Positions 14,653-45,717 of a stretch of DNA of 57,950 nucleotides are shown here, piece after piece. The notes beneath the pieces were generated by a model. That model did no database searches and was not told the DNA's origin. It saw only the letters and a program-made list of their open reading frames with translations. Source of the DNA: Singulisphaera sp. (GTDB lineage Bacteria; Planctomycetota; Planctomycetia; Isosphaerales; Isosphaeraceae); assembly GCA_027451445.1 (NCBI GenBank), contig DAIDJG010000227.1, positions 1 through 57,950 on the forward strand, written 5' to 3'. Both the position numbers and the translations under genes were made by a program. Each line of letters starts with the position of its first letter. The stretch's first letter is position 1.

Positions 14653-14653
14653 G

Positions 14654-15001
14654 TCAGCAGTCCCCGCTCACAGCCCACCACTGCCCGGCCCACCACAGAC
14701 ACCAGATATATTTCGAGGAGCCCACGGCGGTCGAATTGGCGTTGTAATACGTGACTGTGCTGGACGTCGAGGCAAGAGCGCCCGACGTGTAGCTCTGCAC
14801 GGTGCCCGTGCCCGATCCGGGCGTCGAGCCGCTGCGGGCCGACGCGCCTGAGGAGGTCAGGATCAGGATCACCTGGGTCCCGGAAAACCGAGGCGGTCGC
14901 CTTGGGGCCAGGAAATCGTAAGGCTGTTGCTCGACGCGCTGAATCGTCGAAACGAGGCGACGCCCGTTGCTGCGGGCCAGGTCGCGACCGCGGGCGCTCA
15001 C
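14654..15001 (-). CDS. Prophage tail-region hypothetical protein
   Basis: 115 aa with GTG start overlapping the upstream TGA (GTGA). A basic N-terminus ('SARGRDLARSNGRRLVSTIQ') is followed by a Ser/Gly/Thr-rich low-complexity stretch and a Trp/Cys-rich end ('WCLWWAGQWWAVSGDC'). The function is unknown; it lies among tail-tip genes. Confidence 0.55.
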   Translation of the reverse strand: MSARGRDLARSNGRRLVSTIQRVEQQPYDFLAPRRPPRFSGTQVILILTSSGASARSGSTPGSGTGTVQSYTSGALASTSSTVTYYNANSTAVGSSKYIWCLWWAGQWWAVSGDC

Positions 15002-15987: not shown

Positions 15988-15991
15988 GTGA

Positions 15992-17497
15992 TCACATCAA
16001 TGCCGCGAGCGGATTAACGCCAGCGACCACGGCTGACCGACTTGCGACCGCGGAAGCGATGCGGGTGAGGATCTCGTTGGTTTTGGCGGTGTTTTTGGCC
16101 ACTTGCTCCTGCGGCCCGCGGCTACCGACCGAGCCGAACCGAGCGGTGAGGATCGCGTTCGTGGCCTCGCGCGAGCCGAGTTCGGCTGCGGAGGCGTAAC
16201 GCGTGCCGTTGCCGAGCGAGTTGCCCGGGCCCGGTTGCCCGGGCGTGATCGTTGAAACGTCGGTGCGTGTTTTTGCGACATCCTTTTGCACGGCCGCAAT
16301 CTTGTCCCTCGCCCGGTCGAAATACTCCGCGAGTGCCTGCGACTTAGGAGGCCGCGCCATGTCCGCGAGGAAACGTCCCCACTGATCCTTGGAGAGACGA
16401 TCCAGATCGTCAGCGTAGGTACGCAGGAAGTCCTGGAGCCCGCTCCTGGCGCTCCCCGTTTTTTCGAGGACCCAGTCGAGCGCTCCCGCGACCTTGGAAA
16501 GCGCGCTCACGATGGTGGCAAGGCCAGAGGTCACGTACGACTGGACAGCGCTGAAGGCGTTACCCATAAACTGCCACGCATCAGCCAGAAAGCCGACCGT
16601 CGTCTGGAGCACGCCGACCGAGCCGGCAGCACCCTCCATCGAGCCCACGGTCGAGCTCGCGAAGGCGACCACGGAGGATTTGGACTCTTCCCAGGCGATC
16701 CCGAGCGCTGTAACGGCCGTGTTGAGTTCCGCGAGCACGCTTTTCGCGACCGGCTGAAGCGCGACGCCCAGGTCCGCGGCCAGGTTCTGCACACGGCCTC
16801 CCAGGCCGCGAAGGGCGTTCGCCATCTCGTTGGCTGTCTTGGCGTGGTCACCTTGCGCGTCGGCCAGATTGCGCGTGATCAGCGACAGACGGGCCTGTAC
16901 CTTCTGGGCCTGCGTGAGCTCCTGTCCATTGCGCACGAGGCCCAGCCTCATGGCCTCCAGCTTCGTCGTCGTCTCGTCGATAAGGACGCCGATCGACTTG
17001 AGCGGCTCTGACTCGCCGGAGATGCCTGCTCGGACCTTTTGAAGCGCCTCATCGAAGGACAGATTCTTGAATGACGATACGTCGTCGGCGAGCTTGACCA
17101 TCTCAACCGAGAGCTTCGCCGACTGCTCGGCGGTGTAGCCCAGGTTTTTGAAGAGCCCCCCCAGATTCGAAGCCGCGTCCATGAACTCGACCTTCGAGGT
17201 CCCGAAAGCGTCCGCCATGCGGTTGGCCTGCGCAACGACCTCGGGCGCGGCCGAGCCGAAGGTCGCCTCGACCTTGTTCAAGGTCTCGACGAGGCCTGAT
17301 CCCGCCATCGCAATCTTGGCGACACCCGCTGCCGCGGCTGCCGCGGCAGCGCCTGCGAAAAACGTCTTGAGCGCGAGACCGGACCGCGTCACGCCTGTCT
17401 CGAACCGCCCCAGGAGCCCACTGGCGTGGTGCAGACCTTTGCGCAGCCGCTGCGTGTCGGTCGTCATCAGGATCGAAAGCTTGCCGATGATCGCCAT
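15992..17497 (-). CDS. Tail tape measure protein
   Basis: 501 aa. The N-terminus ('IIGKLSILMTTDTQRLRKGL') and the Ala-rich hydrophobic stretch 'FFAGAAAAAAAAGVAKIAM' are followed by a long helical, TP901-type core ('LGGLFKNLGYTAEQSAKLSVEM', then 'SSFKNLSFDEALQKVRAGIS') and further hydrophobic helices. The protein sets tail length. At ~0.15 nm per residue it predicts a tail of roughly 75 nm, short for a siphovirus. ATG overlaps the stop of the GT chaperone frame (TAATG). The order chaperone then tape measure is as in lambda-like phages. Confidence 0.88.
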   Translation of the reverse strand: MAIIGKLSILMTTDTQRLRKGLHHASGLLGRFETGVTRSGLALKTFFAGAAAAAAAAGVAKIAMAGSGLVETLNKVEATFGSAAPEVVAQANRMADAFGTSKVEFMDAASNLGGLFKNLGYTAEQSAKLSVEMVKLADDVSSFKNLSFDEALQKVRAGISGESEPLKSIGVLIDETTTKLEAMRLGLVRNGQELTQAQKVQARLSLITRNLADAQGDHAKTANEMANALRGLGGRVQNLAADLGVALQPVAKSVLAELNTAVTALGIAWEESKSSVVAFASSTVGSMEGAAGSVGVLQTTVGFLADAWQFMGNAFSAVQSYVTSGLATIVSALSKVAGALDWVLEKTGSARSGLQDFLRTYADDLDRLSKDQWGRFLADMARPPKSQALAEYFDRARDKIAAVQKDVAKTRTDVSTITPGQPGPGNSLGNGTRYASAAELGSREATNAILTARFGSVGSRGPQEQVAKNTAKTNEILTRIASAVASRSAVVAGVNPLAALM

Positions 17498-17736
17498 TAG
17501 CCGGTGATCCTCTCGAGATTGGCGCGCATCTCGGACTCCGATTGGGCGCCGCGATCAGGCAATCGCATGAAGTCCTGGGCGCGGAATGGGGGCTGCCCCT
17601 TCGCCCGCTGCGAGTTGGCGATCGTGGCGCAGATCTGGCCGGCGTCCCACGCGGGATCGGGCATCGGCTCAAGGCCGAAATACGCGATCCACTCGCGAAA
17701 CTCACGATCGGGCATGCGCTCGAGTTCGGAGACCAT
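17497..17736 (-). CDS. Tail assembly chaperone downstream frame (GpT/DUF4035-like)
   Basis: 79 aa if started at ATG 17736. 'MPDREFREWIAYFGLEPMPDP' matches the minor tail protein T / DUF4035 signature. The same frame is open upstream to 17793, where a -1 slip from the preceding gene would enter it, so the main product is probably a 204-aa fusion (17497-18110). In lambda the GT fusion recruits tail tube subunits to the tape measure. The C-terminus overlaps the tape measure start. Confidence 0.8.
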   Translation of the reverse strand: MVSELERMPDREFREWIAYFGLEPMPDPAWDAGQICATIANSQRAKGQPPFRAQDFMRLPDRGAQSESEMRANLERITG

Positions 17737-17789
17737 GCGGCCAAGCTGGAGCGCGAGGCGAAAAAGGAACCTGCGCTCCGGCCGCTCGA

Positions 17790-18110
17790 TCAGTTTTTTC
17801 GGAAGGCCTCGGCGTCCTCAGGTCGCAATCGATTGACCGCGATCGCGGCGTCGACCAGGGGCTCGACCAGGCGCACGGGTAGCAGATTCAGGCGTCCGAC
17901 GTCCAGCTCGTCGAATTCGGGCTCTCCACGTTCGTCGCAGCAGCACGCAATCAGAATGCGCGCGCGGTACTGCTTGTCTGCCTGGACGGCCGTGTCGAAC
18001 GCGTCCTTTTCCGCGACGGTCAGGCTGCGCACATAGGTACGGCCGTGCTCGGTCTCGACTGGGACGATAGCGCGCGAACAGTCGACGGCGAAAAGCGTTT
18101 CTCGAAACAT
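17790..18110 (-). CDS. Tail assembly chaperone upstream frame (GpG-like)
   Basis: 106 aa, starting at ATG 18110 behind GAGGT 5 nt upstream; the longer frame to 18389 overlaps the major tail protein and is not used. Helical, acidic protein ('RSLTVAEKDAFDTAVQADKQ') with the size and position of G-type chaperones, between the major tail protein and the tape measure. It ends exactly at the slippery heptamer. Confidence 0.78.
   Translation of the reverse strand: MFRETLFAVDCSRAIVPVETEHGRTYVRSLTVAEKDAFDTAVQADKQYRARILIACCCDERGEPEFDELDVGRLNLLPVRLVEPLVDAAIAVNRLRPEDAEAFRKN
17793..17799 (-). promoter_or_regulatory. Programmed -1 frameshift slippery site (A AAA AAC)
   Basis: On the minus strand the zero-frame codons CGA AAA AAC TGA end the upstream chaperone. 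A AAA AAC is a canonical heptamer allowing both tRNAs to slip by -1. The stop follows directly. In the -1 frame the next codon is CTG and the frame stays open through the 79-aa GT frame. Both the heptamer and the frame relation were checked by hand. Confidence 0.8.
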
Positions 18111-18153
18111 GCAGACCTCGTGATGCTTTGTGGTAGTGCGCCGAAGATCGCCT

Positions 18154-18615
18154 TCACGGCGTCGACGTGTTCGCGCCGGAGACCCTGATACCCCACGTGA
18201 CCTTGAGATTCTCCTCAGGGCCGCCGGCCTCAGCGCCGTCCATCGTCTTGACCCAGCCGGGGAATACCTTGCTCGAGGCGGTAGTGCCGCTGGCGAAGAC
18301 GACCTTGAAATTGTTGAATCCACTGTAGCTCTGCGCTGAACCCGTCGGCGGACTGTCCTTGAGGAGAGCCAGGAATTTGTGCGCGGCATCGGTGGGATCG
18401 TAATTGGTCTCGACCTCGCACGTGCCGTTATCAGGGATTGTCGGGAAATTGGTTTTCACGGTCGATGCGAGCGTGGTCGTGTCACGCTCACCGACCTCGC
18501 CGCCGCCTGCGCCGTTGATCGACAGGACCTGGCCGATCAGCGTGTACGTGCCGCCGGGCGGATAGGCCTCGTCGATGGATATGGTAGTGCCCAGGGCGGG
18601 CCACGCTACGGCCAT
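18154..18615 (-). CDS. Major tail (tube) protein
   Basis: 153 aa. Motifs typical of lambda-V / phage major tail proteins: 'TTISIDEAYPPGGTYTLIGQVLSI', 'GERDTTTLASTVKTNFPTIPDNG', and the late 'PGWVKTMDGAEAGG', with a final 'VTWGIRVSG'. Monomers stack as hexameric rings to form the non-contractile tube. It has the strongest ribosome binding site of the operon (GGAGGTCC, 8 nt before ATG), as expected for an abundant protein. Confidence 0.85.
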   Translation of the reverse strand: MAVAWPALGTTISIDEAYPPGGTYTLIGQVLSINGAGGGEVGERDTTTLASTVKTNFPTIPDNGTCEVETNYDPTDAAHKFLALLKDSPPTGSAQSYSGFNNFKVVFASGTTASSKVFPGWVKTMDGAEAGGPEENLKVTWGIRVSGANTSTP

Positions 18616-18660
18616 GAGTCAGGACCTCCAAAAAGAGTCAGAACGTGCGCGGGCCGAGGC

Positions 18661-18897
18661 TCAGATGTCCCGTGCGACGAACGGGAAAGGCTCGCCCTCG
18701 GCGATATCCGGGCGATCAGTGACGTCGACCCAGCGGTCGGGATAGCGTTTCAGCCCGAGCTTTTTGAGCAGCACCCCGACCTTCTTGTCGTGGCGGCCAA
18801 ACAGGTCGAACGTTCTATCCCATAAAAACACCTTGATGCATTTGAGCTCGCCCTGGTCGTCGAAGTCGACGGCGGCAACACGGACGGTGATGGGCAC
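18661..18897 (-). CDS. Small prophage tail-region protein
   Basis: 78 aa, soluble, mixed alpha/beta: 'VAAVDFDDQGELKCIKVFLWD', basic middle ('GRHDKKVGVLLKKLGLKRYP') and an acidic end. It lies between the HK97 gp10-like gene and the major tail protein. No family recognised. Its good coding frame and tight spacing (10 bp to the upstream stop, 45 bp to the next start) support a real gene. Confidence 0.55.
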   Translation of the reverse strand: MPITVRVAAVDFDDQGELKCIKVFLWDRTFDLFGRHDKKVGVLLKKLGLKRYPDRWVDVTDRPDIAEGEPFPFVARDI

Positions 18898-18907
18898 TGG
18901 ATTACTC

Positions 18908-19357
18908 CTACGGTTTTTTGGCTTCGCGCTCGATGCCTGCGCGCAAATGCTCGAGTGTGAGACTTTTCACTTGGTGGCCATGCGAGTCGAACGCGCGTTT
19001 CATGAAATCGTTGGGCTCGAGACTTCGCTTTTTGGAGCCGTACTCCACGATCGCCGGGTAAAACACGGTCGTGTCCGTCCTGGCACTCGTCCGTTTTGTG
19101 CGGTCCGTCGCGAGGATTTCCACGTTCAGCCGCACGGTGCCGCGTTTGCGCTTGCGAATGGCCCTCACCTTGATCGCACCCCGGAGCACCCCGTGCCACA
19201 CCGGCGCAACGGACTTGACCGCGCTCGCGAGCACCTTGAGACCGGCGCGCATGGCCTGGCCGATCAGCTTGCGCTGAAGCCTGGGCTCGAGCTGGCGCAG
19301 CTTGCGGTCGAGCCGGCGGATCCCCGAAACGAAAAGCGACCTTTTTCCGGCGCTCAC
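18908..19357 (-). CDS. HK97 gp10-like tail / neck protein
   Basis: 149 aa with GTG start at 19357 overlapping the upstream TGA (GTGA). It is strongly basic and has the HK97-gp10 pattern: an N-terminal helix ('RRLDRKLRQLEPRLQRKLIGQ'), 'SVAPVWHGVLRGAIKVRA', and the conserved end '(F)YPAIVEYGSKKRSLEPNDFMKRAFD'. Such proteins form tail completion or neck parts between connector and tube. Confidence 0.8.
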   Translation of the reverse strand: MSAGKRSLFVSGIRRLDRKLRQLEPRLQRKLIGQAMRAGLKVLASAVKSVAPVWHGVLRGAIKVRAIRKRKRGTVRLNVEILATDRTKRTSARTDTTVFYPAIVEYGSKKRSLEPNDFMKRAFDSHGHQVKSLTLEHLRAGIEREAKKP

Positions 19358-20046
19358 GCTGTACAGATCTTGCCGGTCAGGCTGGCGGCCGCGGTGCAGC
19401 TCACGTACGCCGAGGTGACGTTGGCCGTGAAAGGATTGGAGCCGTAGCCAGAGACACCCCACACGAGCGGGATGCCCGGCGCGAGCACGATGGTATTGGT
19501 GGGCAGCCCCGGCGTGGTGTGAACGACCGAGGCGGTGGGCGACGTGCCGCCGGTGAGCTCGCCCGAGTAGGTCTGGATCACGGGTTGCTGGCCGGTCGAC
19601 AGCGTGCCGGCGAAGGTGATCGTAATTGCCGTGCCGGGGAGCGGTCCGCCCGCGCAGGTCGCGTTGCCGGAGCCGATCGTAGACAGCGCCTGGAGGGCGC
19701 TCTGAACCTGGGAAGCCGTGGCGTCGTAAGGGACGACGGTCGTCTGACCGCCGAAAGCCACGCCGATATAGCCGCCCGTCGGCGTGCCGCTCACGGAGAG
19801 CGTCTGGACGTCGGCGGCGCCTGTGCCGTTGGTTTTGAGGGTAAGACCCTTGTCGCTCACCAGGAACACCGATTGCAGATTGGCCGCGGTGAGCGACAGC
19901 GTGATCGACTGATTGGACGTCGAGGCCGCAAACTGTTGCGTGGGGATCACGATCTCGCTGTTGCCGGTCTCGGTGTCGTAGCCGCTCACCGATTGCGATC
20001 CCGTGCTCGAGGATACTGTGTACTGGAGCTTGTGGCTAACGCTCAT
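19354..20046 (-). CDS. Prophage structural protein with phage Ig-like repeat
   Basis: 230 aa; ATG at 20046 overlaps the upstream stop (ATGA). The sequence is low in charge and beta-rich. The stretch around residues 80-150 ('VVPYDATASQVQSALQALST', 'GNATCAGGPLPGTAITITFAG') resembles a module seen in many phage head or tail surface proteins in which a short helix selects adjoining strands. It is probably a decoration or tail ornament. Exact role unknown. Confidence 0.6.
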   Translation of the reverse strand: MSVSHKLQYTVSSSTGSQSVSGYDTETGNSEIVIPTQQFAASTSNQSITLSLTAANLQSVFLVSDKGLTLKTNGTGAADVQTLSVSGTPTGGYIGVAFGGQTTVVPYDATASQVQSALQALSTIGSGNATCAGGPLPGTAITITFAGTLSTGQQPVIQTYSGELTGGTSPTASVVHTTPGLPTNTIVLAPGIPLVWGVSGYGSNPFTANVTSAYVSCTAAASLTGKICTA

Positions 20047-20585
20047 TTGAGGCTCGGAAGCGGGACGCGGAAGTGGATCGAGTACTCGGTATTTTGCAGA
20101 TAGATCCACGTATCCGTACCCGTCTGGGCAAGATACGGATCGTCGTCGTCACCATCCTGGAGACAGGACATCACCTCGATGGTGCCGTTGCCCCACGACT
20201 CGAGCACCACTCCGTCGATCTCGTCGCGGAGCGCCTCCACAATCGCGGCCGTCGTCGCGACCGAGGTGGCGAGTGCCTGAAACTGCACCCGCGCGAGCGA
20301 GGTGCCGTCCGAACCCGACAGCGCGTGACCGCTGGTGCGAGACGCGACGGCATAAGTCAGCGCTGGCCCGTCGGCCACGAAGTCATGCACCTGCGACGCG
20401 ACGTTGGGATAGATGGCCGACCCCACGATCGACGTCAGACCCGCAAGCGATCCCAGTTTCGCATAAAGCGCCTGGCGGAAATCCTGCTGGGCCGGCCCGC
20501 TGGCCCCGAGATAGCGCGGCGTGAAGAGGCCGACCTGGGTCGGGTGGGCTTGCGGTCGCGGGATTGCGAGCGGTGTAACGATCAC
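20043..20585 (-). CDS. Tail completion protein (DUF3168-like)
   Basis: 180 aa. The core 'FRQALYAKLGSLAGLTSIVG' followed by 'AIYPNVASQVHD', 'PALTYAVASRT', 'LARVQFQALATS' and 'IVEALRDEIDGV' matches DUF3168 / gp17-type tail completion proteins, which cap the tail tube at the head side. An extra N-terminal ~35 residues are Pro-rich. ATG overlaps the next gene in the order (ATGA). Confidence 0.75.
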   Translation of the reverse strand: MIVTPLAIPRPQAHPTQVGLFTPRYLGASGPAQQDFRQALYAKLGSLAGLTSIVGSAIYPNVASQVHDFVADGPALTYAVASRTSGHALSGSDGTSLARVQFQALATSVATTAAIVEALRDEIDGVVLESWGNGTIEVMSCLQDGDDDDPYLAQTGTDTWIYLQNTEYSIHFRVPLPSLK

Positions 20586-21733
20586 GGGGTCGTGTTGATC
20601 GAGACTGTGACTGGATCAGCGCCTGTGGCCGAGAACGTGTACTCGATCGAGGCGCCGTTGAAGTCCGAAGCAGATCCCGCAAAGTAGTAACGGTTCGTCG
20701 CGCCGATCTGCGTGATCGTGCCGCCAACGGCGGATTCGGAGCCGCCGGCGATCGACCGCACGGCTGAGACAGATCCCCCTGTGTACGGGGTCACGTGGTC
20801 GGAGCTGGAGACCATCGCGAAGGCGAAGCCACTCGCGGTGTTGATCTTGTACGGGCCCGCGATCCGCGGGAACCCGTTGGTGTCGACGGCCGCGGCGGAT
20901 CCCGCGAACTCCTTGACGTTGACGTCCGGGATGCCCGCGGTGGTCTGCGCGGGGATCAGGCCCGCGATCCAGTAGTGCGTATCCACGATCGGGACGCCCG
21001 CCGTCGAAGGGCTGCTTACCGCGGAGCCGCTCCAGTCGTGGACGTCGACCACGGGCACGCCGGTGATCGCCGGCGTGGCCACCGCTGAGCCGCTCCAGTC
21101 GTGGACGTCGACCACAGGCACGCCTGAGACGCTGGGGGTGGCCACGATCGAGCCCGACCAGTAATGGGCGTCGGTGATCGGGACGCCGGTCTGAGAGGGC
21201 GCTGGCACTGCCCCGCCGCTCCAGTAGTGCGGATCGACCACGGGCACGCCGGTCGCCGAGGTCGCCGGCACCGCTCCCGTGCGCCAGCTCTCGACGTCGG
21301 TCTCGAGATACCCGACTCCGCTCGATCCGCTCGCGAGCACGGCCAGGTCGCCCTGGTCGCCGCCGAACTGGATCTCACGGTACTGGTCGGTCGGGTACGC
21401 GTTGGGATTATTGACCCGGATCAAATACACCGCGCCGGCGGTAAAGCCGGTCAACACCGACAACGCATAAGTCCAGAGTCCTGTGTCCGTGGCGGCATTA
21501 TTCGATTTGCGATAGGTCATCGACGCCGTCTCGGTCGTGACAGCCGTCGACGAAAAGGTGTTGGTCGAAAAGTCGTAGGTCTTGATGCTTCCGTCGCTCT
21601 GAAGCTCTTGCAAATAGAGAGACGTCGTGCCCGTCGTCACCAGGGCACCCGCAGAAGTCTGCATAAACGCCCGAAACACGAGCGCCGTGCCTGTCTGCCG
21701 GACGTCGATCCCCTTCACGCCGGTGTTTGCCAT
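20582..21733 (-). CDS. Putative fibre protein with 21-residue tandem repeats
   Basis: 383 aa. Residues ~1-135 are a beta-rich head domain. Residues ~139-286 consist of seven units of 21-22 residues with consensus 'GVPVVDVHDWSGSAVATP'. Residues ~290-383 are a terminal domain. The repeat (a short strand, a Trp, a Gly turn) is the kind found in phage surface fibres. Placement inside the head-tail connector block rather than at the operon end suggests a head or neck fibre. Start ATG at 21733 adjoins the previous stop. Confidence 0.65.
   Translation of the reverse strand: MANTGVKGIDVRQTGTALVFRAFMQTSAGALVTTGTTSLYLQELQSDGSIKTYDFSTNTFSSTAVTTETASMTYRKSNNAATDTGLWTYALSVLTGFTAGAVYLIRVNNPNAYPTDQYREIQFGGDQGDLAVLASGSSGVGYLETDVESWRTGAVPATSATGVPVVDPHYWSGGAVPAPSQTGVPITDAHYWSGSIVATPSVSGVPVVDVHDWSGSAVATPAITGVPVVDVHDWSGSAVSSPSTAGVPIVDTHYWIAGLIPAQTTAGIPDVNVKEFAGSAAAVDTNGFPRIAGPYKINTASGFAFAMVSSSDHVTPYTGGSVSAVRSIAGGSESAVGGTITQIGATNRYYFAGSASDFNGASIEYTFSATGADPVTVSINTTP
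20876..21319 (-). repeat. Tandem 63-bp coding repeats
   Basis: About seven units of 63-66 bp encode the 21-residue repeats of the fibre-like protein. Two neighbouring units (around 21025-21150) are almost identical in DNA sequence, suggesting recent expansion. Confidence 0.75.
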
Positions 21734-22560
21734 TACGCTGCACCCCCCGTCCTAACACCACGCGTAAGAGATCCGAGACCACCGCCCGACAGGGCGCCGC
21801 GCATCGGGATCACCACACGCTTCGGCGCGACGATCCGGCGGCGATAGAGATTCGCGATCCATTGCGGCGAAGAGCCGATCTCCGCGTGCTCGGCCGCCGA
21901 AAGCGCACGTGACCAGCCGAGCGACCAGTAGATCACGCACCCCGGATTGCGCGTGTACCCAGGCCATTGCCCGTGCACGACCTGGCTCGTCGAGCTGTAC
22001 GCCGGGCCGCTGCCGTACGTCCCTGGCTGCGACCTCTGGAGGACGCCGTCCAGGTACACCGCGACCGCGCTCGAGGTCGCGGTGACAGAGGCGACAAACG
22101 TCTGGCCGAGCGTGAGCGATGCAATGGATCTGTTGTCCGAGCTGGAGCTCCCGTAATTCCAGCCGGCCGTGAGCGTCAGGCCGCTACCCCAGTACAGGTC
22201 GAGCACGTGGTAGGGGGGAGTGTTGACGGCGTACCAGATCCCCGACACGGCCGCCGCTGTCGTCGGCGTCTCGAGCAGAGTCGCACAGCACGCGATCGTG
22301 ATCGGCCAGCCGACCTGGGCGACGGACGGCAAGATCGAGTAGAGCGAGGCATCCGGCGTCGTGCAGACGAGGCCACCCCCCGCCGGCCCGCCCCCCCACG
22401 GGTCGGTCGTGCCGAAGCCGCGGGACGTTAGTCCGAGCTGGTAGGGCGCCGAGTCCTGCGACGTGGACCCGGCTCCCTCGAGGAGCCCGTGACAGTAGAG
22501 CAGCCCACGCGACAGGTCATGCCTGCCGCTCAGCGGCGTGCCGGCCAGGGGCTTGACCAC
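21733..22560 (-). CDS. LamG / concanavalin-like prophage surface protein
   Basis: About 275 aa from GTG 22560, 7 nt after the upstream stop; the frame is open further but that part overlaps another gene. The second half has a LamG-type pattern: 'FVASVTATSSAVAVYLDGVL' followed by 'VIYWSLGWSRALSAAEHAEI' and a basic tail ('LYRRRIVAPKRVVIP'). Such lectin-like domains on phages bind sugars on the host surface. The exact start is uncertain. Confidence 0.65.
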   Translation of the reverse strand: MVKPLAGTPLSGRHDLSRGLLYCHGLLEGAGSTSQDSAPYQLGLTSRGFGTTDPWGGGPAGGGLVCTTPDASLYSILPSVAQVGWPITIACCATLLETPTTAAAVSGIWYAVNTPPYHVLDLYWGSGLTLTAGWNYGSSSSDNRSIASLTLGQTFVASVTATSSAVAVYLDGVLQRSQPGTYGSGPAYSSTSQVVHGQWPGYTRNPGCVIYWSLGWSRALSAAEHAEIGSSPQWIANLYRRRIVAPKRVVIPMRGALSGGGLGSLTRGVRTGGAA

Positions 22561-22567
22561 GCGGTGA

Positions 22568-22906
22568 CTAATAGACCACCGTCCCGGCCTGCACGGTGCA
22601 GGTCGACGAGGTACCGCCGGTCTGGGCCGTGTAGACGACCTGGGCCGCGACCGCGTCGTCTGGCACCGCGATCGTCCACTGGCTCGTGCCGGCCGCGAGC
22701 GTGGTCGACAGGAGCGGGCCATCAAAATAGGTCGATCCGTCGACGGACCACTGCACCTGGGCGGTCGCCGCTGCCGTCGGCGTCCCGGCCTGCACGATCT
22801 GCACGTACAGAGTCGCGCTATCGGTCGTCGAGAGCGCCGCCGCGCTCGAGGTGCCGCTCGAGGTCGCGCCGGACATCAGCGTGGAGTAGCCCTTTGTCGC
22901 AGCCAT
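22568..22906 (-). CDS. Small prophage structural protein
   Basis: 112 aa from ATG 22906, which overlaps the upstream stop (TAATG). Ser/Thr/Ala-rich beta sequence ('YVQIVQAGTPTAAATAQVQW', 'SVDGSTYFDGPLLSTTLAAG') resembling a single Ig-like or receptor-type beta sandwich. Probably a virion ornament. Confidence 0.6.
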   Translation of the reverse strand: MAATKGYSTLMSGATSSGTSSAAALSTTDSATLYVQIVQAGTPTAAATAQVQWSVDGSTYFDGPLLSTTLAAGTSQWTIAVPDDAVAAQVVYTAQTGGTSSTCTVQAGTVVY

Positions 22907-25022: not shown

Positions 25023-26405
25023 TCACTGATTCTGGTTCGACACCATGTCCACGATTACCGAGAACGCTTCGTTGTGCCGGACCTGGATGTCCATGTCCTG
25101 CAGCGCGACGATGCGCACCGTGCCCGAGCTGGAGCCGGTGTAAGGGTCGACCAGGATGTCCACGCCGGACCAGTAGGCGTAGACGAGCTGGTTGAAGATG
25201 CCGCCGATGATCGGCGAGAGATTCGTGCCCGACCCCTTGGTCAGATTGTTGGGCAACTGCATGGTCTGGTGGAGCGTCTTGCCGTAGACCTTGTCGTCTT
25301 CGAGGATGAAGATCGGGAAGGTCGACCCGATCTTCGGCGTGGTGGCGAGCGTCCCATAGACGTCCGCGTTGCCGATGTAGCTGAACTCGCCCAGGTCGGC
25401 GGCATTGCCGCGCGAGACGATCGTGTACAGCTCGACCATCGCGTTAAAAGTCGGAGCAGCGCCGTTGGTCCCGAGGCTGACTGTGCGGGTCGCCGTGATA
25501 CCCGTGTTTTGCAGGATGCCGAGCGGCTGATTGCTTCCACCCGTGCCGTTGAGCGCGGCCAGGTCACCGCCGCGGGCCAGGATCGCGGTCAAGTCCTCCC
25601 GCACGAACTCGTCGCCGGTCTCAAGTACCGTCATCTCGAAGAAGCGGCGGCTGATATCGGTGAAGGCGCCGAGGGTGTGAGGCGTGAAAAGAACCTGGTC
25701 AAGCGACTGGTTCGAGCCGGTCGGAGCGCCCGACTCCGCGACCCAGTACGCGGTCGCAGCGGCGTTCTGGCGCGGGATCGCAAACTTACCCTTGAGATCG
25801 GTGATCTCGCGAGCGCCGGCCGCCATGGTGACCATCTTGTTGCGTAAGAGCTCGATCCAGTCGCGCTCGAGGTTCGTCGGTACAGAGCCCGCGCCGGCGT
25901 TCGTGTCCAGGGCTCGCCGCTCGCGATCCCAGTCACGCCTGGTACGGCTGGAGGTCCGATAGGGCATAAAAAAGCCCTGAGGCGTCTTATCGGACCGCTG
26001 GCTGATCTCGGCTGAGACCTCGCGCTCGATGCCGTCCAGGGGCTCGAGGCCCTTCGAGGCCATCTGCCGCACGGCCTTGATCAGCGAGTACCGATGCCTG
26101 CCATTGCGATTGTTGGCCGGGTCCTCATGGGGCAGCGGCGAGCTGCGCCGTTCGGCCGGCTCGTCGCCGATCGCGTCGACCGCGATCTGACGCTCAATCT
26201 GGCTGATGCGCTGGGCAAGCTGGTTGGCCTCGCCGGGGCTGGCCTTGGGATTATTGTAGTCGCCCGTAATGGCGACGTGGCGAGCCTCCTCGTCGGGCGT
26301 GAGCTGCCGGTTGTCTCGTTCGGCACGCTCGATGATTTCGCGCGATTCGTCGAGCAGCTTCGCCCGCTTGGCGCGCAGTTCAGCCGCGGTTTCTTTCAGA
26401 CTCAT
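25023..26405 (-). CDS. HK97-family major capsid protein
   Basis: 460 aa. Residues ~1-110 form a coiled-coil scaffolding (delta) domain ('LRAKRAKLLDESREIIERAE'), with the likely protease cleavage region after it. The coat fold follows: 'KGKFAIPRQNAAATAYWVAESGA' region, 'LGAFTDISRRFFEMTV', 'DLAALNGTGGSNQPLGILQ', and the final 'FSVIVDMVSN'. About 400 copies build the icosahedral head. Cleavage by the upstream-encoded protease is expected from the family. Confidence 0.92.
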   Translation of the reverse strand: MSLKETAAELRAKRAKLLDESREIIERAERDNRQLTPDEEARHVAITGDYNNPKASPGEANQLAQRISQIERQIAVDAIGDEPAERRSSPLPHEDPANNRNGRHRYSLIKAVRQMASKGLEPLDGIEREVSAEISQRSDKTPQGFFMPYRTSSRTRRDWDRERRALDTNAGAGSVPTNLERDWIELLRNKMVTMAAGAREITDLKGKFAIPRQNAAATAYWVAESGAPTGSNQSLDQVLFTPHTLGAFTDISRRFFEMTVLETGDEFVREDLTAILARGGDLAALNGTGGSNQPLGILQNTGITATRTVSLGTNGAAPTFNAMVELYTIVSRGNAADLGEFSYIGNADVYGTLATTPKIGSTFPIFILEDDKVYGKTLHQTMQLPNNLTKGSGTNLSPIIGGIFNQLVYAYWSGVDILVDPYTGSSSGTVRIVALQDMDIQVRHNEAFSVIVDMVSNQNQ

Positions 26406-29498: not shown

Positions 29499-31160
29499 TT
29501 ACAAAAAGAGGATACCGCGCTGGTCGTAGACCGACTCGTGCTCGGACGGATCGGCCAATAAAAGGCCGGCCACCGCGTTGACGGTCGCGGCCATGCCGTC
29601 GATTTTTTTTTGGCTGCGCCCCTTGTGGAGCTTGATGTTGCCCGCGGCGTCCTTGACAACGACCGCGTTGCTCGCGTGATTGCGAAGGAGCGGCGATCCG
29701 CCGTGGCGTAACATGCGTCCGAGGACGATGCGCTCGAGCTCCTTGGTCGGCGATGAGAGCGACAAAAAACCCTGGCGAAGGAACTCGACAGGTAGCCCGT
29801 CTTGCTCCTTGAGCTCGATGCCGAGCCGCGTCGCGTTGTAAGGGTCGATCAGCACTTTCCGGATGCTGCTCTTGCTAGCGATCGCCACGACGTCGGCGCG
29901 GATAAATTCGTAGTCGATCACGTTGCCGGGGGTGAGCGTGATAAGACCTCGATCGGCCCACTCGCGATACGGCAGACCGTGCTTCATCTCGAGATCGGCG
30001 ATGTTTTCAAGCGGCAGATAGAAATGGACCATGAGGTCGAAGCCGTCGGCGTAATTGCCGCGCAGGTGCGCGACCGCCGAAAGATCCTGAGTGTCGGAGA
30101 GGTCGATGCCGATATAACTGGGCTCGTCTCCGCCGAGGCAAGGGGCTGCTGAGCACGCGTCCCAGCTCTCGAGCCGCAGGAATTTTGCGTCGCCGGCGGC
30201 CACGATGTTGAGCCGAAGCCGCTTGAAATTGGCCCATTCGCTCGGGATACGCTTGGCTCGCTCGAGATCGCGCCGGAAATCGTCCTCGCTGATCGTCACG
30301 CCGAGCGAAGGATTGGCCTTGTGCCAGGTCGCGGGATCATCGAGATCGTCGGCGGGATCAGCGCGGTACACCACGCCTAGGTGACGCGGGTCGGGGATCA
30401 CGCCGTCGCGGACCTTCTCGCTGTACTCCCGCTGCTCGTGCCAGACACCGCTGGCATCCTCGCCGGCCGTGGTAATCACGATCCGCAGCGGCTGTTCTCT
30501 CGCGGCGCCCGCGTATTCAAACACATCCCACAAGGCACGCGACTTGAACCGGTGAAGCTCGTCGAAGATCGAGGCCGAGGCGTTGACGCCGTCTTTCGAC
30601 GGCGCGTCGGCGCTGTTTTTCTTGAGCCTGCCGTTATTGGCCTCGTTGACGATGACGCCGCGGCTTGCGACGACCTCAAGCCGGGCCTGGAGCTCCGGGG
30701 ACGCCTTGACCATCTTCGCCGCCTCGTCGTAGACGATCGAGGCTTGCTCACGGTCCACCGCGTTCAGATAGACCTCTGGCCCGGCATCGTCGGCAACGAG
30801 TAGCAGGATCGCAAGCGCTGAGATCAGCGTCGACTTGCCGTTCTTCTTTGCCACTTCCAGGTACGTGGTCCGAAATCTCCGCGTCCCGTCTTGCGCTCGC
30901 CACCCAAATAGCCGCATGAGGTAATCACGTTGCCACGCGAGCAGCTTGATGGGCTGGCCTGCCCAACGCCCCTTAGACTGACGGCAGAAGGTCTCCACAA
31001 AATCGCACACACGCTGGCCCTTCGCAGCGTCGACATAATAGCCCTGCTCCAGCGCAATCTCGTCCGAGGCATCCCGGGAGAAGGATGCCTGAGCTTTTGG
31101 CTTGCGCACGCGTTTCGCGTTCGTTCCCCGCTTGTACCGAGTTGACGCTTTCGGGGTCAC
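29499..31160 (-). CDS. Terminase large subunit
   Basis: 553 aa from GTG 31160, which overlaps the small-subunit stop (GTGA); the frame is open further upstream but lies over the small subunit. Terminase_1-type ATPase: Walker A 'AKKNGKSTLISA', Walker B 'ASIFDELHRFKS', coupling region 'VITTAGEDASGVWHEQREYS'. Nuclease half: 'YIGIDLSDTQDLSAV' and 'KVLIDPYNATRLGIEL'. It cuts concatemers and pumps DNA into the prohead through the portal. Confidence 0.93.
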   Translation of the reverse strand: MTPKASTRYKRGTNAKRVRKPKAQASFSRDASDEIALEQGYYVDAAKGQRVCDFVETFCRQSKGRWAGQPIKLLAWQRDYLMRLFGWRAQDGTRRFRTTYLEVAKKNGKSTLISALAILLLVADDAGPEVYLNAVDREQASIVYDEAAKMVKASPELQARLEVVASRGVIVNEANNGRLKKNSADAPSKDGVNASASIFDELHRFKSRALWDVFEYAGAAREQPLRIVITTAGEDASGVWHEQREYSEKVRDGVIPDPRHLGVVYRADPADDLDDPATWHKANPSLGVTISEDDFRRDLERAKRIPSEWANFKRLRLNIVAAGDAKFLRLESWDACSAAPCLGGDEPSYIGIDLSDTQDLSAVAHLRGNYADGFDLMVHFYLPLENIADLEMKHGLPYREWADRGLITLTPGNVIDYEFIRADVVAIASKSSIRKVLIDPYNATRLGIELKEQDGLPVEFLRQGFLSLSSPTKELERIVLGRMLRHGGSPLLRNHASNAVVVKDAAGNIKLHKGRSQKKIDGMAATVNAVAGLLLADPSEHESVYDQRGILFL

Positions 31161-31540
31161 TTCGAGAGGAACACCTGGAGCGCGTCCGCCTTGGGAGCCG
31201 CAGTGCTTTTCAGCCTGGACCGGGCAGACGGTGTCAAACCGAACTCGGCCAACAATCGACGATAACGGTCGCGGCAACCTGCGTTGGTTGGGTCGCGTCT
31301 GAGGCCGTCGTATTCGCTGCAAAGCAACTCAAGGCCCGGAAGGTCTCCCTGAGTCAACACGCCGGCGTTTACGAGCATCGGGACCATGCGTCGCCACAGC
31401 ACCGCGCCGTAAGATCCGATCCACTTGGGCGCCGCGGCCTCGGTAACGGCAGGGAGCCTGGGCTCGTCGGTGTTGATTCTGCACGGCTGATCGCCGGCCA
31501 AAATCTTCAGCGCCGTCGGTTTCGGTTTGCGTCCACGCAT
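31157..31540 (-). CDS. Terminase small subunit (P27 family)
   Basis: 127 aa. It starts 'MRGRKPKPTALKILAGDQPC', the signature N-terminus of P27-type small terminases, and continues with helical DNA-binding and oligomerisation segments. The protein recognises the packaging site and loads the large subunit. It opens the packaging/head operon, with a promoter-like stretch just upstream. Confidence 0.9.
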   Translation of the reverse strand: MRGRKPKPTALKILAGDQPCRINTDEPRLPAVTEAAAPKWIGSYGAVLWRRMVPMLVNAGVLTQGDLPGLELLCSEYDGLRRDPTNAGCRDRYRRLLAEFGLTPSARSRLKSTAAPKADALQVFLSK

Positions 31541-38816: not shown

Positions 38817-39038
38817 TCACTTCCGCGGTTTCCGCGGCGCTGGCCCGATACCCTCGCGGAGGGCCTTGTGCTCGGCCTCGAAGTCGCGCTCGACCGCTGG
38901 CCTCAGGATGGATGACAGGTACTCGACGATGAGCACGCCGCGACGCCCGGCCACGAACTTGGCCTGGTCGAGGATATCCTTCTCGATCTTCACCACCGCG
39001 TCGTTGGTACGCGCCACGACTCGCTCCGAAACGTCCAT
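38817..39038 (-). CDS. Small regulator, antitoxin/RHH-like
   Basis: 73 aa. 'DAVVKIEKDILDQAKFVAGR' and 'GVLIVEYLSSILRPAVERDF' match a planctomycete-type small protein with an RHH-like DNA-binding start and a helical end; similar proteins appear alone or as antitoxins. It is first in a two-gene leftward operon and lies against the operator-rich gap 39039-39181. Confidence 0.6.
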   Translation of the reverse strand: MDVSERVVARTNDAVVKIEKDILDQAKFVAGRRGVLIVEYLSSILRPAVERDFEAEHKALREGIGPAPRKPRK

Positions 39039-39064: not shown

Positions 39065-39145
39065 CAGTTTACCCGAGCATGAACCGCGAAAGTAAATTCT
39101 ATCGGAAAGTATACCAGTAAACTGTAATACCCGTATACTGGTAGC
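39065..39145. promoter_or_regulatory. Divergent operator region
   Basis: Between divergent genes, a stretch clearly richer in A+T holds several repeats: CAGTTTAC (39065-39072) opposite GTAAACTG (39117-39124), TACCAGTA opposite TACTGGTA (39112-39119 and 39136-39143), and an ATCGGAAAGTAT site (39101-39112) shared exactly with 35143-35154. TATACT at 39134-39139 could be a -10 box. No good -35 is seen, as expected for an activated or repressed promoter. Confidence 0.55.
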
Positions 39146-39181: not shown

Positions 39182-39316
39182 ATGGAGCTACGCATATGCG
39201 TCCTACTCATCGCCTGCGCGGCCGCGGTCGTCAGGCTCGCCCAGTTCGGCTTCGAGCACTACTCGTGCTGCCTCGTCCCGGCTTTACTCTGGTGGAGCTC
39301 CTGGTGGTGCTCGTGA
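39182..39316 (+). CDS. Possible 44-aa membrane peptide overlapping the pilin-like gene
   Basis: ATG at 39182 has a near-ideal AGAGGA 5 nt upstream. The reading 'MELRICVLLIACAAAVVRLA' plus 24 residues is hydrophobic with a Trp-rich end and ends inside the pilin-like gene in another frame. It could be a real overlapping peptide, a leader that couples translation, or evidence that the pilin gene start is misread. Confidence 0.35.
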   Translation: MELRICVLLIACAAAVVRLAQFGFEHYSCCLVPALLWWSSWWCS

Positions 39317-40530
39317 TCGTCTTGCTGATCAGCGCCGTGGCGCTGGCCGCTTACGCGCATTACGGTCGCAGCCAGGCGATCACCTCGGCCGCCCGAATCC
39401 TCTCCGCGTCGATCGCCGGCGCCCGCGATCTGGCGGGACCCTCTGGCGGCGCCGGGCTTCGGTTTTTGCCCGACGCCTCGACCGTCTCCTACGCCGGCGG
39501 CCAGATCGACCCGACCGCGCAACTGACGTATCGCGCGGCTCTCCCGCTCAAGCCGGGGCCCAGTTACTCGAGCGGCCTCGTGAATACGGGGCTGCCGCTG
39601 CCCCAGGGCTTCGCGGCGCCATATCCGTGTCTGGTCGTCGAGCAGTCTCCCATCGACGCCGAGGGGCTGCCGTGCGAGCCCACGTCGTGGTTCTGGAAGG
39701 TGCGTGTGGGCGACACGATCACCGTCGGCCAGCACCCGTACACAGTCGTCGGCCCGCTCGCGATCACGCCCTGGTCGGCGAGCCCGGGCAACCCAGACCT
39801 TGCCGTAAACGACGGTCCTCCGGGCTCGCCGCCGCAGCTCACGCGGACGGTGATTACGCCGACGGGCCGCGTCAGCGTACCCGTCGAATATCTCTTCCTG
39901 GTCAACGGCCGCGACGACGATCGCAACGGCTTCGTGGATGACGGCTGGGACGGTGTGGACAATAACGTCAACCTCCAGGTCGACGAGCTCCTTGAATGGG
40001 AGACCGAGACCTGGCAGGGCTTCGACGGGGCGCTCTCCGCGACCCCGTACACGATCGTCTCGCGCCCGATCCCGGACTCGAGCCGGCCACCGATCACGCT
40101 GCCACTCGGCGTGGTGATCGACGCGTCCACGGTGTGGACGACCCAGGAGCGGACGCGGGCGCCGATCAACAGGTACACAGGCGTGCTCGATCTGATCTGG
40201 AATGCTCGCGGTGAGCTCGAGCCCTCGATCCCGTACGGCGTGCCGAGCTCGATCGGGCTCTCGAGCTCCTATGTCTCGCTCTGGCTTGCGAGCCAGGAGG
40301 ACCTGGCCCCGCTCGAGGGTACGTCTGCCCCGCTGCTGCCGGTGGGCGAGATCGGGCGCCAGACGACGTGGACCGGGCGTCGTCTGACCCACGCGTACGG
40401 GGTGATCACGATCCCGCTGCGGACCGGCGCGCCGAGATACGTCGCCGATCCGTGGTTCGCCGATCCCGCCGTGCAGCCGTATACCACTCTGACGCCTTTT
40501 TTGCCAGGGATGCGGGGGGTGGATCAATGA
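39196..40530 (+). CDS. Pseudopilin-like protein carried by the prophage
   Basis: 444 aa. The basic leader ends in a prepilin peptidase site and continues as the class hydrophobic helix: 'RPG|FTLVELLVVLVIVLLIS' with Glu at position 5 after the cut. Such N-termini are inserted in the inner membrane and built into type II secretion or type IV pilus filaments. The large body (~400 residues) is beta-rich, with an Asp-rich calcium-like loop 'DDDRNGFVDDGWDGVDNN' at about residues 239-256. Pilins are usually ~150-200 aa. A GTG at 39265 would give a 6-residue leader. No pilus gene accompanies it. Confidence 0.8.
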   Translation: MRPTHRLRGRGRQARPVRLRALLVLPRPGFTLVELLVVLVIVLLISAVALAAYAHYGRSQAITSAARILSASIAGARDLAGPSGGAGLRFLPDASTVSYAGGQIDPTAQLTYRAALPLKPGPSYSSGLVNTGLPLPQGFAAPYPCLVVEQSPIDAEGLPCEPTSWFWKVRVGDTITVGQHPYTVVGPLAITPWSASPGNPDLAVNDGPPGSPPQLTRTVITPTGRVSVPVEYLFLVNGRDDDRNGFVDDGWDGVDNNVNLQVDELLEWETETWQGFDGALSATPYTIVSRPIPDSSRPPITLPLGVVIDASTVWTTQERTRAPINRYTGVLDLIWNARGELEPSIPYGVPSSIGLSSSYVSLWLASQEDLAPLEGTSAPLLPVGEIGRQTTWTGRRLTHAYGVITIPLRTGAPRYVADPWFADPAVQPYTTLTPFLPGMRGVDQ

Positions 40531-40733
40531 TCATTTATTCACGCGGATGGGCCGCGCTCCTGTGCAACGTCCGAGAGTGCAACGAGGAGATCAGGATCGA
40601 CACCACAGATCCGCGGATCGCCAGGAACTGGCTCGAAATGGAGGCCATCGCCAAGGGCTGGACTCGTCTCACGCACACTGGCGTGCTTGAGTGGCGCTGC
40701 CCGAAGTGCAGACAGGACGGTAAGGAGTCATGA
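40527..40733 (+). CDS. Small zinc-ribbon protein
   Basis: 68 aa; ATG overlaps the pilin-like stop (ATGA). Cys pairs 'LCNVREC' and 'WRCPKCRQD' frame a helical middle, giving a zinc-ribbon. The last residues overlap the next start. Similar small ribbons are frequent in phage early regions; function unknown. Confidence 0.6.
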   Translation: MIIYSRGWAALLCNVRECNEEIRIDTTDPRIARNWLEMEAIAKGWTRLTHTGVLEWRCPKCRQDGKES

Positions 40734-40987
40734 TCAACGTATCCACATCGTGGCATGCTTACGCCTTTGCCGCTGCGGTACTCTGGGTCACCTCGCGGCT
40801 CATGTGCGCCGCCCTGGACGTCGCCCTCGAGCGACTCGACGCATCGAGCACGCGTGACTGGAGCACGCCGTCGACGGTCCCGTTGGTCCTTGTGATCGCG
40901 GGCTGCGCGAGCTGCCTCGCGTGCGGAGTAGGCAGTCTGGTCTGCGCTGTGATCGCGGTGATCGCAGCCGTGTGGGCGGAATTCTAA
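40730..40987 (+). CDS. Small two-span membrane protein
   Basis: 85 aa, ATGA overlap with the upstream gene. Two hydrophobic segments ('AYAFAAAVLWVTSRLMCAAL' and 'VPLVLVIAGCASCLACGVGS' continuing to the end). Being coupled to the pilin-like gene it may act with it at the membrane, for example in superinfection exclusion; this is conjecture. Confidence 0.6.
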   Translation: MINVSTSWHAYAFAAAVLWVTSRLMCAALDVALERLDASSTRDWSTPSTVPLVLVIAGCASCLACGVGSLVCAVIAVIAAVWAEF

Positions 40988-42017: not shown

Positions 42018-42269
42018 ATGGCTACCTCCCCTCTAGCCGCCGCCGGCGGCTTCGGACCCGTCCGTCCTGCGCGCAATGCGACCGAGTCCCGCAGGGACAA
42101 TCGCAAGAAGCGCGAACGCCACAGACCGACATGCCCGGCGGAATGGCCGGCGTGGACCGACCAGGACGTCTGGCAGGTCGAGAGTGATCCCGCTCTCTGG
42201 CCGGCCTGGACCGACACAGTGCGCTTCGCCACCGACGATCGCAGGGACGCGATCGGAGGTGAAAAATGA
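42018..42269 (+). CDS. Small Trp-motif early protein
   Basis: 83 aa. Basic N-terminal half ('ARNATESRRDNRKKRERHRP') and a twice repeated 'WPAWTD' in the second half. GAAAGGA lies 9 nt before ATG. Its stop overlaps the primase-helicase start. A partner or loader of that protein is possible. Confidence 0.5.
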   Translation: MATSPLAAAGGFGPVRPARNATESRRDNRKKRERHRPTCPAEWPAWTDQDVWQVESDPALWPAWTDTVRFATDDRRDAIGGEK

Positions 42270-44602
42270 GCGCGACAGTCGCACCGATCGACACGGTGAT
42301 CGCGAAGCTCGGCGCCCTCGGTTGCGAGCCGCAGGACGCCGGACCGGGCCAATGGAGGAGCCGTTGCCCCGTCCATGAGGGGCGATCACGCAACCTTTCC
42401 ATTAAATGCAATAGCGACGGCAGCGTGCTGCTGCACTGTCACCACGTTGACGCGGGCGGAGCACGGTGCTCCGCAGCCCAGATCGCCCAGCGACTCGGGC
42501 TCTCAATGAGAGACCTGTTCCCAAGCTCGAGGCGAGAAGAAAACCCTAAGAAGGCCCGGACCTGGCGCACACCCGAAGACGCGATCGCGGTGATCGCACG
42601 CCGGCTCGGGCCTCCCGCGGCCTACTGGTCCTACGCCGTCGAAGAGGATGGTGTCGCGACGGAGCGCATGCGGGTGTACCGCTTCAACGGCGACGACGGC
42701 CGAAAACAGTTCCGTCCGATCCACAAGAACGCCCAGGGATGGGCGTTCGGAGATCCTCCTGGGATGTTGCCGCTCTATGCGCAGCCCGAAGTGCTCAAGG
42801 CCGAGCGAGTCCTGGTCGTCGAAGGCGAGAAGTGCGCGGACCTCGTCCGGCAGCTCGGGCTCCCCTGTACGACATCGGCGCACGGCTCGCAGTCGCCCCA
42901 TCGCACCGACTGGCGACTGCTCGCCGGCAAGGAGGTCGCAATCGTCCCCGACAATGACGACGCAGGCGTGGCGTACGCGAACGCCGTCGCGTCCGCCTTG
43001 CACCAGCTCGAGCCCCGCCCGGAGGTGCGTATCATCCGGCTCGAGCTCCCAGGCAAGGGAGACGACGTCGCCGACTGGGTGCGGGACATCGTGCCCGATC
43101 ACTGGGACTTCACCGACTGCCGAATCGAGCTCGAGCGACTTTGGGCCAGGGCACAACTCTGGGAGCCGCCTCGCGAGGAGGAGACGGCCTCGAACGAGCC
43201 GCCCAACCTCACCGAGGTCGGCAACGCGCGCCGATTAATCCGCGATCACGGCAAGCACCTCCGTTACGTGTACCCCAGATCAGCCTGGATGATCTGGAAC
43301 AAACAACGCTGGGAGGTCGACTCGTCGGGAGCAATCTGGCGCATTGCCAAGCAGCTCCCGCGCAAGATCGCGGCTGAGGCACACGAGTGCCGCGACAATG
43401 ACCGACACGAGGCGATCTTGCGCTGGTCGATCCAGACCGAGCGCAAGAAAATCCTCCAGGCGTCTCTCGATCTGGCATGGTCGGAGCCCGGGATCGGTGT
43501 CATGCCCGATGACTTTGACCGCAACCCCATGCTGCTCAATACGCCTTCCGGCGTCGTGGACCTGGCGACAGGCGAGCTTCGCTCCGCACGCCCCGAGGAC
43601 ATGATGAGCAAGATGACGGCCGTGCCCGTCGATCTCAAGCGCGACTGCAAGCGCTGGCGCGGGGTGTTGGCCGATGTGTTCGAGGGTGATGAGGACCTCA
43701 TCGCCTACATGCAGCGAGCGCTCGGATACTGTCTCACCGGCGAAACGGGCGAGCACGCGATGTGGCTGTGCTACGGATCGGGCCGGAACGGCAAGAACAC
43801 CGTCCTCGACACGGTCCGTGCCCTGATGGGCGACTATTCGACCGTCGCGGATCCCCGCGTTTTTCTGAGCGCCGGCCAGGGCGACCACCCGGCCGGCCTG
43901 GCCGACCTGGTCGGTGAGCGGCTCGTGATCACGTCGGAGATTGACGAGGGGCAGCGCCTCGCGGAATCCCTGGTGAAGCGGGTGACCGGTGACAAGACCA
44001 TCAAAGCGAGGTTCATGCACCAGAATCCGTTCGAGTTTGTCATCCAGTTCAAGCTCTGGTTCTTGTGCAACCACCTTCCCGAGGTGGCGAAGCAGGACGA
44101 GGGGATCTGGTCCAGGATCAGGATCGTCCCCTTCAACAAGTTCATTCCTCCCGACCGGTGCATCAAGGGACTGTCAGAGATCCTTATCGCGGAGGAAGGA
44201 CCCGCGATTCTCGGTTGGCTCGTTGAAGGAGCCAAAGAGTGGGCGCGCGAAGGTGGGCTAAATGAGCCCTCCAGCGTCTCAAGGGCAACGCAGGGATACC
44301 GCGACGAACAGGACGTCGTGGGCGACTTCCTTAGGGAGTCCACCGACTGCCATCTCGACAACGAGACGCTCCGCACCCAGGCTCGGTGCAAGGCGGCCGA
44401 CCTGTACACAGACTACGTAGCATGGTGCGCACGGAACGGCGTGCGTCAGCCGCTCACCTCGAAGAAGTTTGGCCACGATTTGACGCGACGTGGATATGAG
44501 TACAGGGCGTCGAACGGGCACTACTATCGATTTGGGTTAACGCTAAGGTCTGATCCTGGAATGACTAGCGCGGTCCCAAGGACTTCAGATTCGGCCTTTT
44601 AA
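42266..44602 (+). CDS. P4-type primase-helicase
   Basis: 778 aa. N-terminal zinc part ('RCPVHEGRSRNLSIKCNSDG', 'LHCHHVD'), TOPRIM primase core ('VLVVEGEKCADLVRQLG', 'EVAIVPDNDDAGVAYANAVA'), D5_N-type linker, then SF3 helicase: Walker A 'CYGSGRNGKNTVLDTVRALM', Walker B 'LVITSEIDEG', sensor 'FKLWFLCNHLPEV'. It would prime and unwind at the phage origin, by analogy with P4 alpha protein. It is the last rightward early gene and sits beside nested repeats. Starts with ATG overlapping the upstream stop. Confidence 0.92.
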   Translation: MSATVAPIDTVIAKLGALGCEPQDAGPGQWRSRCPVHEGRSRNLSIKCNSDGSVLLHCHHVDAGGARCSAAQIAQRLGLSMRDLFPSSRREENPKKARTWRTPEDAIAVIARRLGPPAAYWSYAVEEDGVATERMRVYRFNGDDGRKQFRPIHKNAQGWAFGDPPGMLPLYAQPEVLKAERVLVVEGEKCADLVRQLGLPCTTSAHGSQSPHRTDWRLLAGKEVAIVPDNDDAGVAYANAVASALHQLEPRPEVRIIRLELPGKGDDVADWVRDIVPDHWDFTDCRIELERLWARAQLWEPPREEETASNEPPNLTEVGNARRLIRDHGKHLRYVYPRSAWMIWNKQRWEVDSSGAIWRIAKQLPRKIAAEAHECRDNDRHEAILRWSIQTERKKILQASLDLAWSEPGIGVMPDDFDRNPMLLNTPSGVVDLATGELRSARPEDMMSKMTAVPVDLKRDCKRWRGVLADVFEGDEDLIAYMQRALGYCLTGETGEHAMWLCYGSGRNGKNTVLDTVRALMGDYSTVADPRVFLSAGQGDHPAGLADLVGERLVITSEIDEGQRLAESLVKRVTGDKTIKARFMHQNPFEFVIQFKLWFLCNHLPEVAKQDEGIWSRIRIVPFNKFIPPDRCIKGLSEILIAEEGPAILGWLVEGAKEWAREGGLNEPSSVSRATQGYRDEQDVVGDFLRESTDCHLDNETLRTQARCKAADLYTDYVAWCARNGVRQPLTSKKFGHDLTRRGYEYRASNGHYYRFGLTLRSDPGMTSAVPRTSDSAF

Positions 44603-45644: not shown

Positions 45645-45717
<73 letters not shown>

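Follow-up and report, generated by a model that had tools for sequence, protein, structure and literature searches.

Why a tailed prophage should carry a gene for a pilin is the question raised by a locus in Singulisphaera sp., which lies within a stretch of 57,950 nucleotides referred to here as the window. An initial annotation took this to be a pilin-like gene carried as prophage cargo, whose product could enter the host pilus or secretion filament and change phage adsorption, superinfection or secretion.

The prophage is delimited by an exact 44-bp att repeat, the second copy of which lies in a tRNA-Ala(CGC) gene (Table 1), and the repeat encloses integrase, tail, HK97 capsid, terminase (TerL) and D5-type primase genes, which together make up a complete tailed prophage of 34.5 kb. 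The exact repeat, along with a circular relative described below, rules out that a host gene was placed inside the prophage through wrongly drawn ends. The pilin gene is the first gene rightward of an AT-rich divergent region, facing a small 73-aa gene, and heads an operon that runs towards the primase; its TGA stop overlaps the ATG of the zinc-ribbon gene (40527), whose own TGA overlaps the ATG of the gene for the 85-aa protein (40730). The initial description of a pilin-like gene as prophage cargo is supported for the window. A promoter scan found none. The prophage also encodes a second, small (187 aa) tyrosine recombinase (35157-35720 (+)) besides the integrase at 11332, 80% identical in the phage of genome G035, and a 266-aa protein (32468-33268 (-)), cysteine-peptidase-like by reading, which is kept in the G035 (51%) and G037 (36%) phages.

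Table 1. Features of the window discussed in the text.
Feature	Position	Strand
attL, exact 44-bp copy of the tRNA-Ala 3' part	11149..11192	.
Prophage tyrosine integrase	11332..12252	+
Tail module, including a tape-measure-like gene at 15992-17497 and, at 13864-14652, one for a tail-end protein that bears a CarboxypepD_reg/Big_1-like domain	13864..22725	-
HK97-type major capsid protein	25023..26405	-
Terminase large subunit	29499..31322	-
Small protein of 73 aa that reads as ribbon-helix-helix-like, its gene divergent to that of the pilin; the G035 phage has a 46% relative	38817..39038	-
Inverted repeat TACCAGTAAAC / GTATACTGGTA, which may be an operator, within the AT-rich divergent region	39112..39143	.
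Very probable phage-borne GspH/FimU-type minor prepilin, 444 aa	39196..40530	+
Leader, 29 residues, the last Gly29; predicted prepilin peptidase cleavage G29/F30	39196..39282	+
N-terminal helix of the mature protein; invariant F1, T2, L3, E5	39283..39432	+
Calcium-loop-like Asp-rich stretch NGRDDDRNGFVDDGWDGVDNNVNLQVDE	39904..39987	+
68-aa zinc-ribbon-like protein; ATGA overlap with pilin stop	40527..40733	+
85-aa protein, two hydrophobic spans; ATGA overlap with zinc ribbon	40730..40987	+
D5-type primase/helicase, farther along the same rightward gene group	42266..44602	+
attR, 44-bp repeat within tRNA-Ala(CGC) 45645-45717 (-)	45645..45688	.

The pilin reading frame starts with ATG, has GGAG 8 bases 5' of the start and shows a coding-like base composition, with GC at the codon positions of 0.68/0.54/0.83. 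Its product has the features of a class III signal peptide, i.e. a G/F motif (G29/FTLVE, the slash marking the predicted cleavage), Glu5 and a hydrophobic N-terminal helix after the motif. Pfam N_methyl (PF07963) matches residues 29-50 (E 3e-6; 27 bits, cut-off 21.2) and the NCBIfam model IV_pilin_GFxxxE (TIGR02532) also exceeds its cut-off, so that the prepilin N-terminus claimed earlier is real, at exactly the coordinates first given for the reading frame. Residues F1, T2, L3 and E5 of the mature protein are invariant among the phage copies. The Asp-rich loop that had been likened to a calcium site is likewise present (NGRDDDRNGFVDDGWDGVDNN...VDE), with a number of D/G positions that do not vary among relatives. 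Generic planctomycete pilin families such as DUF1559 were considered and rejected, N_methyl being the only Pfam model matched above its cut-off.

Which kind of pilin this is was approached through family models and a predicted structure. The best NCBIfam match is the GspH model (residues 29-84, E 2.2e-8), and an AlphaFold2 model of the window pilin built from 12 aligned sequences (mean pLDDT 73.7, pTM 0.72, the Asp-rich loop being its low-confidence part) gave a FimU-type fold, with the Pseudomonas aeruginosa minor pilin FimU (4ipu) as the first VIA-align match (Z 9.7, rmsd 3.1, 129/136 residues) and the next at Z 4.4. Foldseek alone returned a weak match (E 0.66), and its search of viral structures gave no useful match for the window pilin. 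FimU is the T4P counterpart of the T2SS protein GspH, the minor subunit through which the tip complex is connected to the shaft; a subunit of this kind initiates and caps the filament. The window pilin shares with GspH and FimU the prepilin N-terminus with Glu5, a C-terminal beta fold and a slot adjoining the G-, I-, J- and K-position genes, but is about three times the size of FimU, contains the Asp-rich stretch and is phage-encoded. It also falls below the 80-bit cut-off of the T2SS GspH equivalog TIGR01708 (34.3 bits for the window protein, 41 bits for a chromosomal homologue), for which reason we call it GspH/FimU-type rather than filing it in that equivalog. With this qualification, the protein is very probably a minor pseudopilin of the GspH/FimU type carried by phages; the earlier label of pilin stands and becomes more precise, as a tip subunit tied to one host operon slot in place of a generic pilin.

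That slot is defined by the chromosomal homologues, which hold one fixed place (H) in a T4P/T2SS-like operon with the order PilT-PilB/GspE-PilC/GspF-G-H1-[H, pilin homologue]-I-J-K, where the labels I, J and K stand for positions, no family model matching these genes. The genomes with homologues are, by reading, planctomycete and Isosphaeraceae-like, a group of bacteria from soil and water.

The initial annotation had proposed a search for homologues in other prophages, and these were found: in all, the genome set and IMG/VR contain 16 distinct phage or prophage loci with the H-type pilin. The closest is a circular phage contig of 36,069 bp (G035:C182, after removal of a 141-bp terminal overlap), which is syntenic with the window prophage (identities of 80% for the capsid, 72% for portal and terminase, 61% for primase and 44% for integrase) and places its pilin ahead of the primase, as in the window. 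Further loci in the genome set are the prophages G044:C117 and G042:C15 and phage modules in G037:C360 and G001:C142, the last only 13.3 kb long and judged phage-borne because tail genes lie next to the pilin gene and L080 is its partner in the tree. In IMG/VR the single window protein found no match and an alignment was needed as query; with it, 12 strong contigs were obtained. One pair among them shares a single sequence and another contig corresponds to the G042 prophage, leaving 10 new. A scan of genome contigs gave one true relative (L092), its other matches being N-terminal. Homologues thus lie both in chromosomal operons and in phages, and not, as the sceptical alternative had it, only in the former with misplaced phage ends.

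Among cultured phages and plasmids, including 50,697 phage records, nothing matched the pilin, in a search whose low-complexity filter may mask pilin helices. This bears on the idea that the pilin is a part of the virion or of a membrane complex that aids the phage's own assembly or release, for which one could cite its retention within phage lineages and the tail genes that adjoin it in many phages. Given the empty search of phage records, a gene position that shifts between phages and a phylogeny interleaved with chromosomal copies, we regard such a role as very unlikely.

The host genome (10.9 Mb, 622 contigs) encodes 70 prepilin N-termini, so that a single pilin inside a prophage is not striking by itself, with about 0.2 such N-termini expected by chance per 34.5-kb prophage; what goes beyond chance is the same pilin family in 16 phage loci. 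A maximum-likelihood tree built on 37 proteins requires 7 switches between chromosome and phage, of which well-supported branches force at least 5. This indicates transfer between host and phage several times. Phage copies pair with different host genera (L077 with g14, the G037 phage and L086 with g17, L079 and L084 with G010), and there are older phage-only lineages, namely the window with G035 (100/99) and a five-member clade (96/97). Judging from this tree, phages captured the H-type pilin several times, with a direction that is not fixable for every step. A recent copy from the window's own host was also considered and rejected, the window assembly holding no second copy and the nearest relatives being about 50% identical. 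Phage ends marked by att repeats, the interleaved phylogeny and the variable placement are those of a moron, a host-derived gene within phage ends whose position varies among related phages.

Capture of common host genes by chance, followed by decay, would be easy with so many prepilin genes on hand, and two phage copies do lack the C-terminal half. These are sister pilins (G037 phage, L036:8549-9487 (-); L086:9998-10795 (+)), both of which end at one and the same point after the Asp-rich loop; a frameshift was sought as the cause, and no C-terminal remnant was found downstream in any frame. The two are 70% identical with a dN/dS of 0.28, and in the compared pairs overall pairwise dN/dS was 0.18-0.56, with synonymous sites partly saturated. 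Such values, well under 1 and a sign of purifying selection, the repeated capture of one and the same operon slot and the long phage-only lineages argue against neutral hitchhiking, which is already disfavoured and to which we assign a low probability. The short sisters are possibly a dominant-negative form; the structure model of the L086 protein is of low confidence (pLDDT 61.5). Mature phage copies are also somewhat shorter as a group, with a median of 410 residues compared to 478 for chromosomal ones (p 0.01, uncorrected for kinship).

The conserved set of three genes that the initial annotation had envisaged did not hold up, as the 85-aa two-span protein was not seen beside the pilin in the nearest relative, the G035 phage, and the order of the zinc ribbon varies. 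A zinc ribbon is nonetheless often next to the pilin: it lies downstream in the window and in G035, and in frame upstream in G044, G042 and L082. In-frame zinc ribbons directly before the prepilin cleavage site are seen in L031:3428-4834, L082:4070-5548 and L062:17035-18414, and in G044 and L082 no ATG, GTG or TTG falls in the stretch from the final CxxC to that site, which suggests that the pilins of G044 (L031) and L082 are made with a zinc ribbon fused on as a leader, roughly 80 residues long.

Pseudopilins other than the H-type have also reached phages. A prophage in G010:C4, with integrase and tail related to those of the window and identical to IMG/VR contig L099, carries an I-type pseudopilin between integrase and tail end (L072:5809-7149 (+)) that is 58% identical to the host's own, and G-type subunits of nearly full length occur on at least three IMG/VR contigs (L101:4980-6137, L102:4986-6092 and L103:4692-6062), those in L101 and L102 bordering the tail in convergent orientation to phage genes. 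IMG/VR further gave one weak H1-like match and, in a scan for the J-type subunit, none; the scans were of unequal sensitivity and the G count is a minimum, so that these counts are no strict test of slot specificity. A small Cys-rich protein at the tail end (L072:7137-7469 (-)), with relatives in L079, L084 and L101, adjoins three pseudopilin types.

A pseudopilin gene that borders the tail module and runs convergently to it was seen in 13 phage loci, nine of them with an H-type subunit and four with another. Three or four subunit types in this position could mean that the filament is altered to favour the phage's own infection or release, the pilin travelling beside the tail-tip genes that recognise it. 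Such tuning of a receptor seems improbable to us, since a temperate phage has little to gain from more superinfection by itself, the tail border is a usual moron site anyway, and in the window and the G035 phage the pilin lies far from the tail genes, at the head of the replication-gene operon.

The main rival to the reading we prefer is a replacement that benefits the host, in which the phage subunit takes over from or retunes the host tip subunit in secretion, adhesion or DNA uptake, possibly leaving the host dependent on its prophage. In G001, which belongs to the genus of the window, the operon on G001:C230 has an empty H slot (L059:5113-5400), with 286 bp from the H1 stop to the I start, and the only copy found adjoins phage tail genes (G001:C142); the G001 genome is listed as 10% contaminated, which weighs against this example. 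Full-length phage copies retain the invariant residues, and FimT, a related minor pilin, is reported to act in DNA uptake (PMC8897410). Replacement is not general, however, as G035, G037 and G044 each have a phage copy alongside an intact chromosomal one. In the window genome the contig with the operon breaks off after PilC/GspF, and the assembly yielded no G-to-K genes, so that loss of chromosomal H is not claimable there; nor is such a loss claimed for G042, where the slot coincides exactly with a contig break. Lysogenic conversion of this kind strikes us as a real but lesser possibility.

As the best mechanism we favour, tentatively and short of an even chance, superinfection exclusion by a phage subunit in the tip complex of the host filament. 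The pilin would be produced in the lysogen, or else soon after infection begins, inserted into the inner membrane and, as predicted from its sequence, cut by the host prepilin peptidase between G29 and F30. Through its conserved N-terminal helix and Glu5 it could then enter the tip or priming complex in competition with the host subunit, as homology and the retained residues suggest. Filament assembly, length or dynamics would be altered and phages that use this machine excluded, by analogy with precedents in other bacteria, and secretion or adhesion of the lysogen might change as a side effect.

Exclusion is preferred on account of what is described elsewhere. T2SS and T4P serve as phage entry routes, with phage phiAP1 requiring a working T2SS (PMC9765573) and VP2 using the T2SS secretin as its receptor (PMC8101328). 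An excess of a pseudopilin can confer phage resistance, as in Ralstonia, where overexpression of GspG reduced secretion and made cells resistant to phiAP1 (PMC9765573); that was an artificial construct of a host gene for the major subunit, whereas the pilin here is a phage-carried minor one. The dosage of minor pilins shifts pilus dynamics, which are set by the minor-to-major pilin ratio (PMC13249403). Temperate phages are also known to disable T4P (PMC11436027, PMC8764522), and exclusion by blocking of T4P is described for several Pseudomonas phages (PMC11436027). Their blockers (D3112 Gp05 and DMS3 Aqs1, both on PilB; Pf4 pVII and Pf PfsE) are alike in being temperate phage genes that act on a T4P/T2SS machine to exclude others (PMC11436027, PMC8764522), as is proposed, and only proposed, for the pilin; they are described as hitting motor or platform proteins, and none as a host-derived homologue of a filament subunit.

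Some observations sit less easily with exclusion. A position at the head of a replication operon, as in the window and G035, fits exclusion expressed in the lysogen less well than one at the tail border, and the empty slot of G001 with its phage-side copy fits replacement, not interference. With Glu5 kept in the phage copies, nothing marks the majority as dead decoys, and benign replacement is equally possible on this point. We know of no receptor for any planctomycete phage.

Phage-borne pilins and phage proteins that target T4P are already known. PHROG 3433 ('pilin', moron category) is, like the family here, phage-encoded with a prepilin N-terminus, but its 127-position profile matches the N-terminal helix only (L077, E 1e-5; window protein P0001, E 1e-3), and the PHROG library ties it to no host operon subunit. 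A minor pseudopilin taken repeatedly from one host operon slot has no counterpart in the searched literature, where nothing on a phage-encoded pseudopilin was found, preprints and most subscription papers lying outside that search. A broader, more speculative view, to which we give a modest chance, is that phages possess a modular slot for host pseudopilins (H-, G-, I- and possibly H1-type), often by the tail-tip genes and used to reprogram or jam the filament against rivals, with hosts of the G001 type, having lost their own copy, depending on the prophage.

Where phages are known to act against pili, they inhibit motor or platform proteins; here the agent is apparently the stolen filament subunit itself. 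This points to the planctomycete T4P/T2SS-like machine as a battleground between phage and host and suggests candidate systems that planctomycete phages might use as receptors. That phages hijack a subunit is an idea open to direct testing, and the example of G001 indicates that phage DNA can house one component of a secretion or pilus machine while its chromosomal slot is empty.
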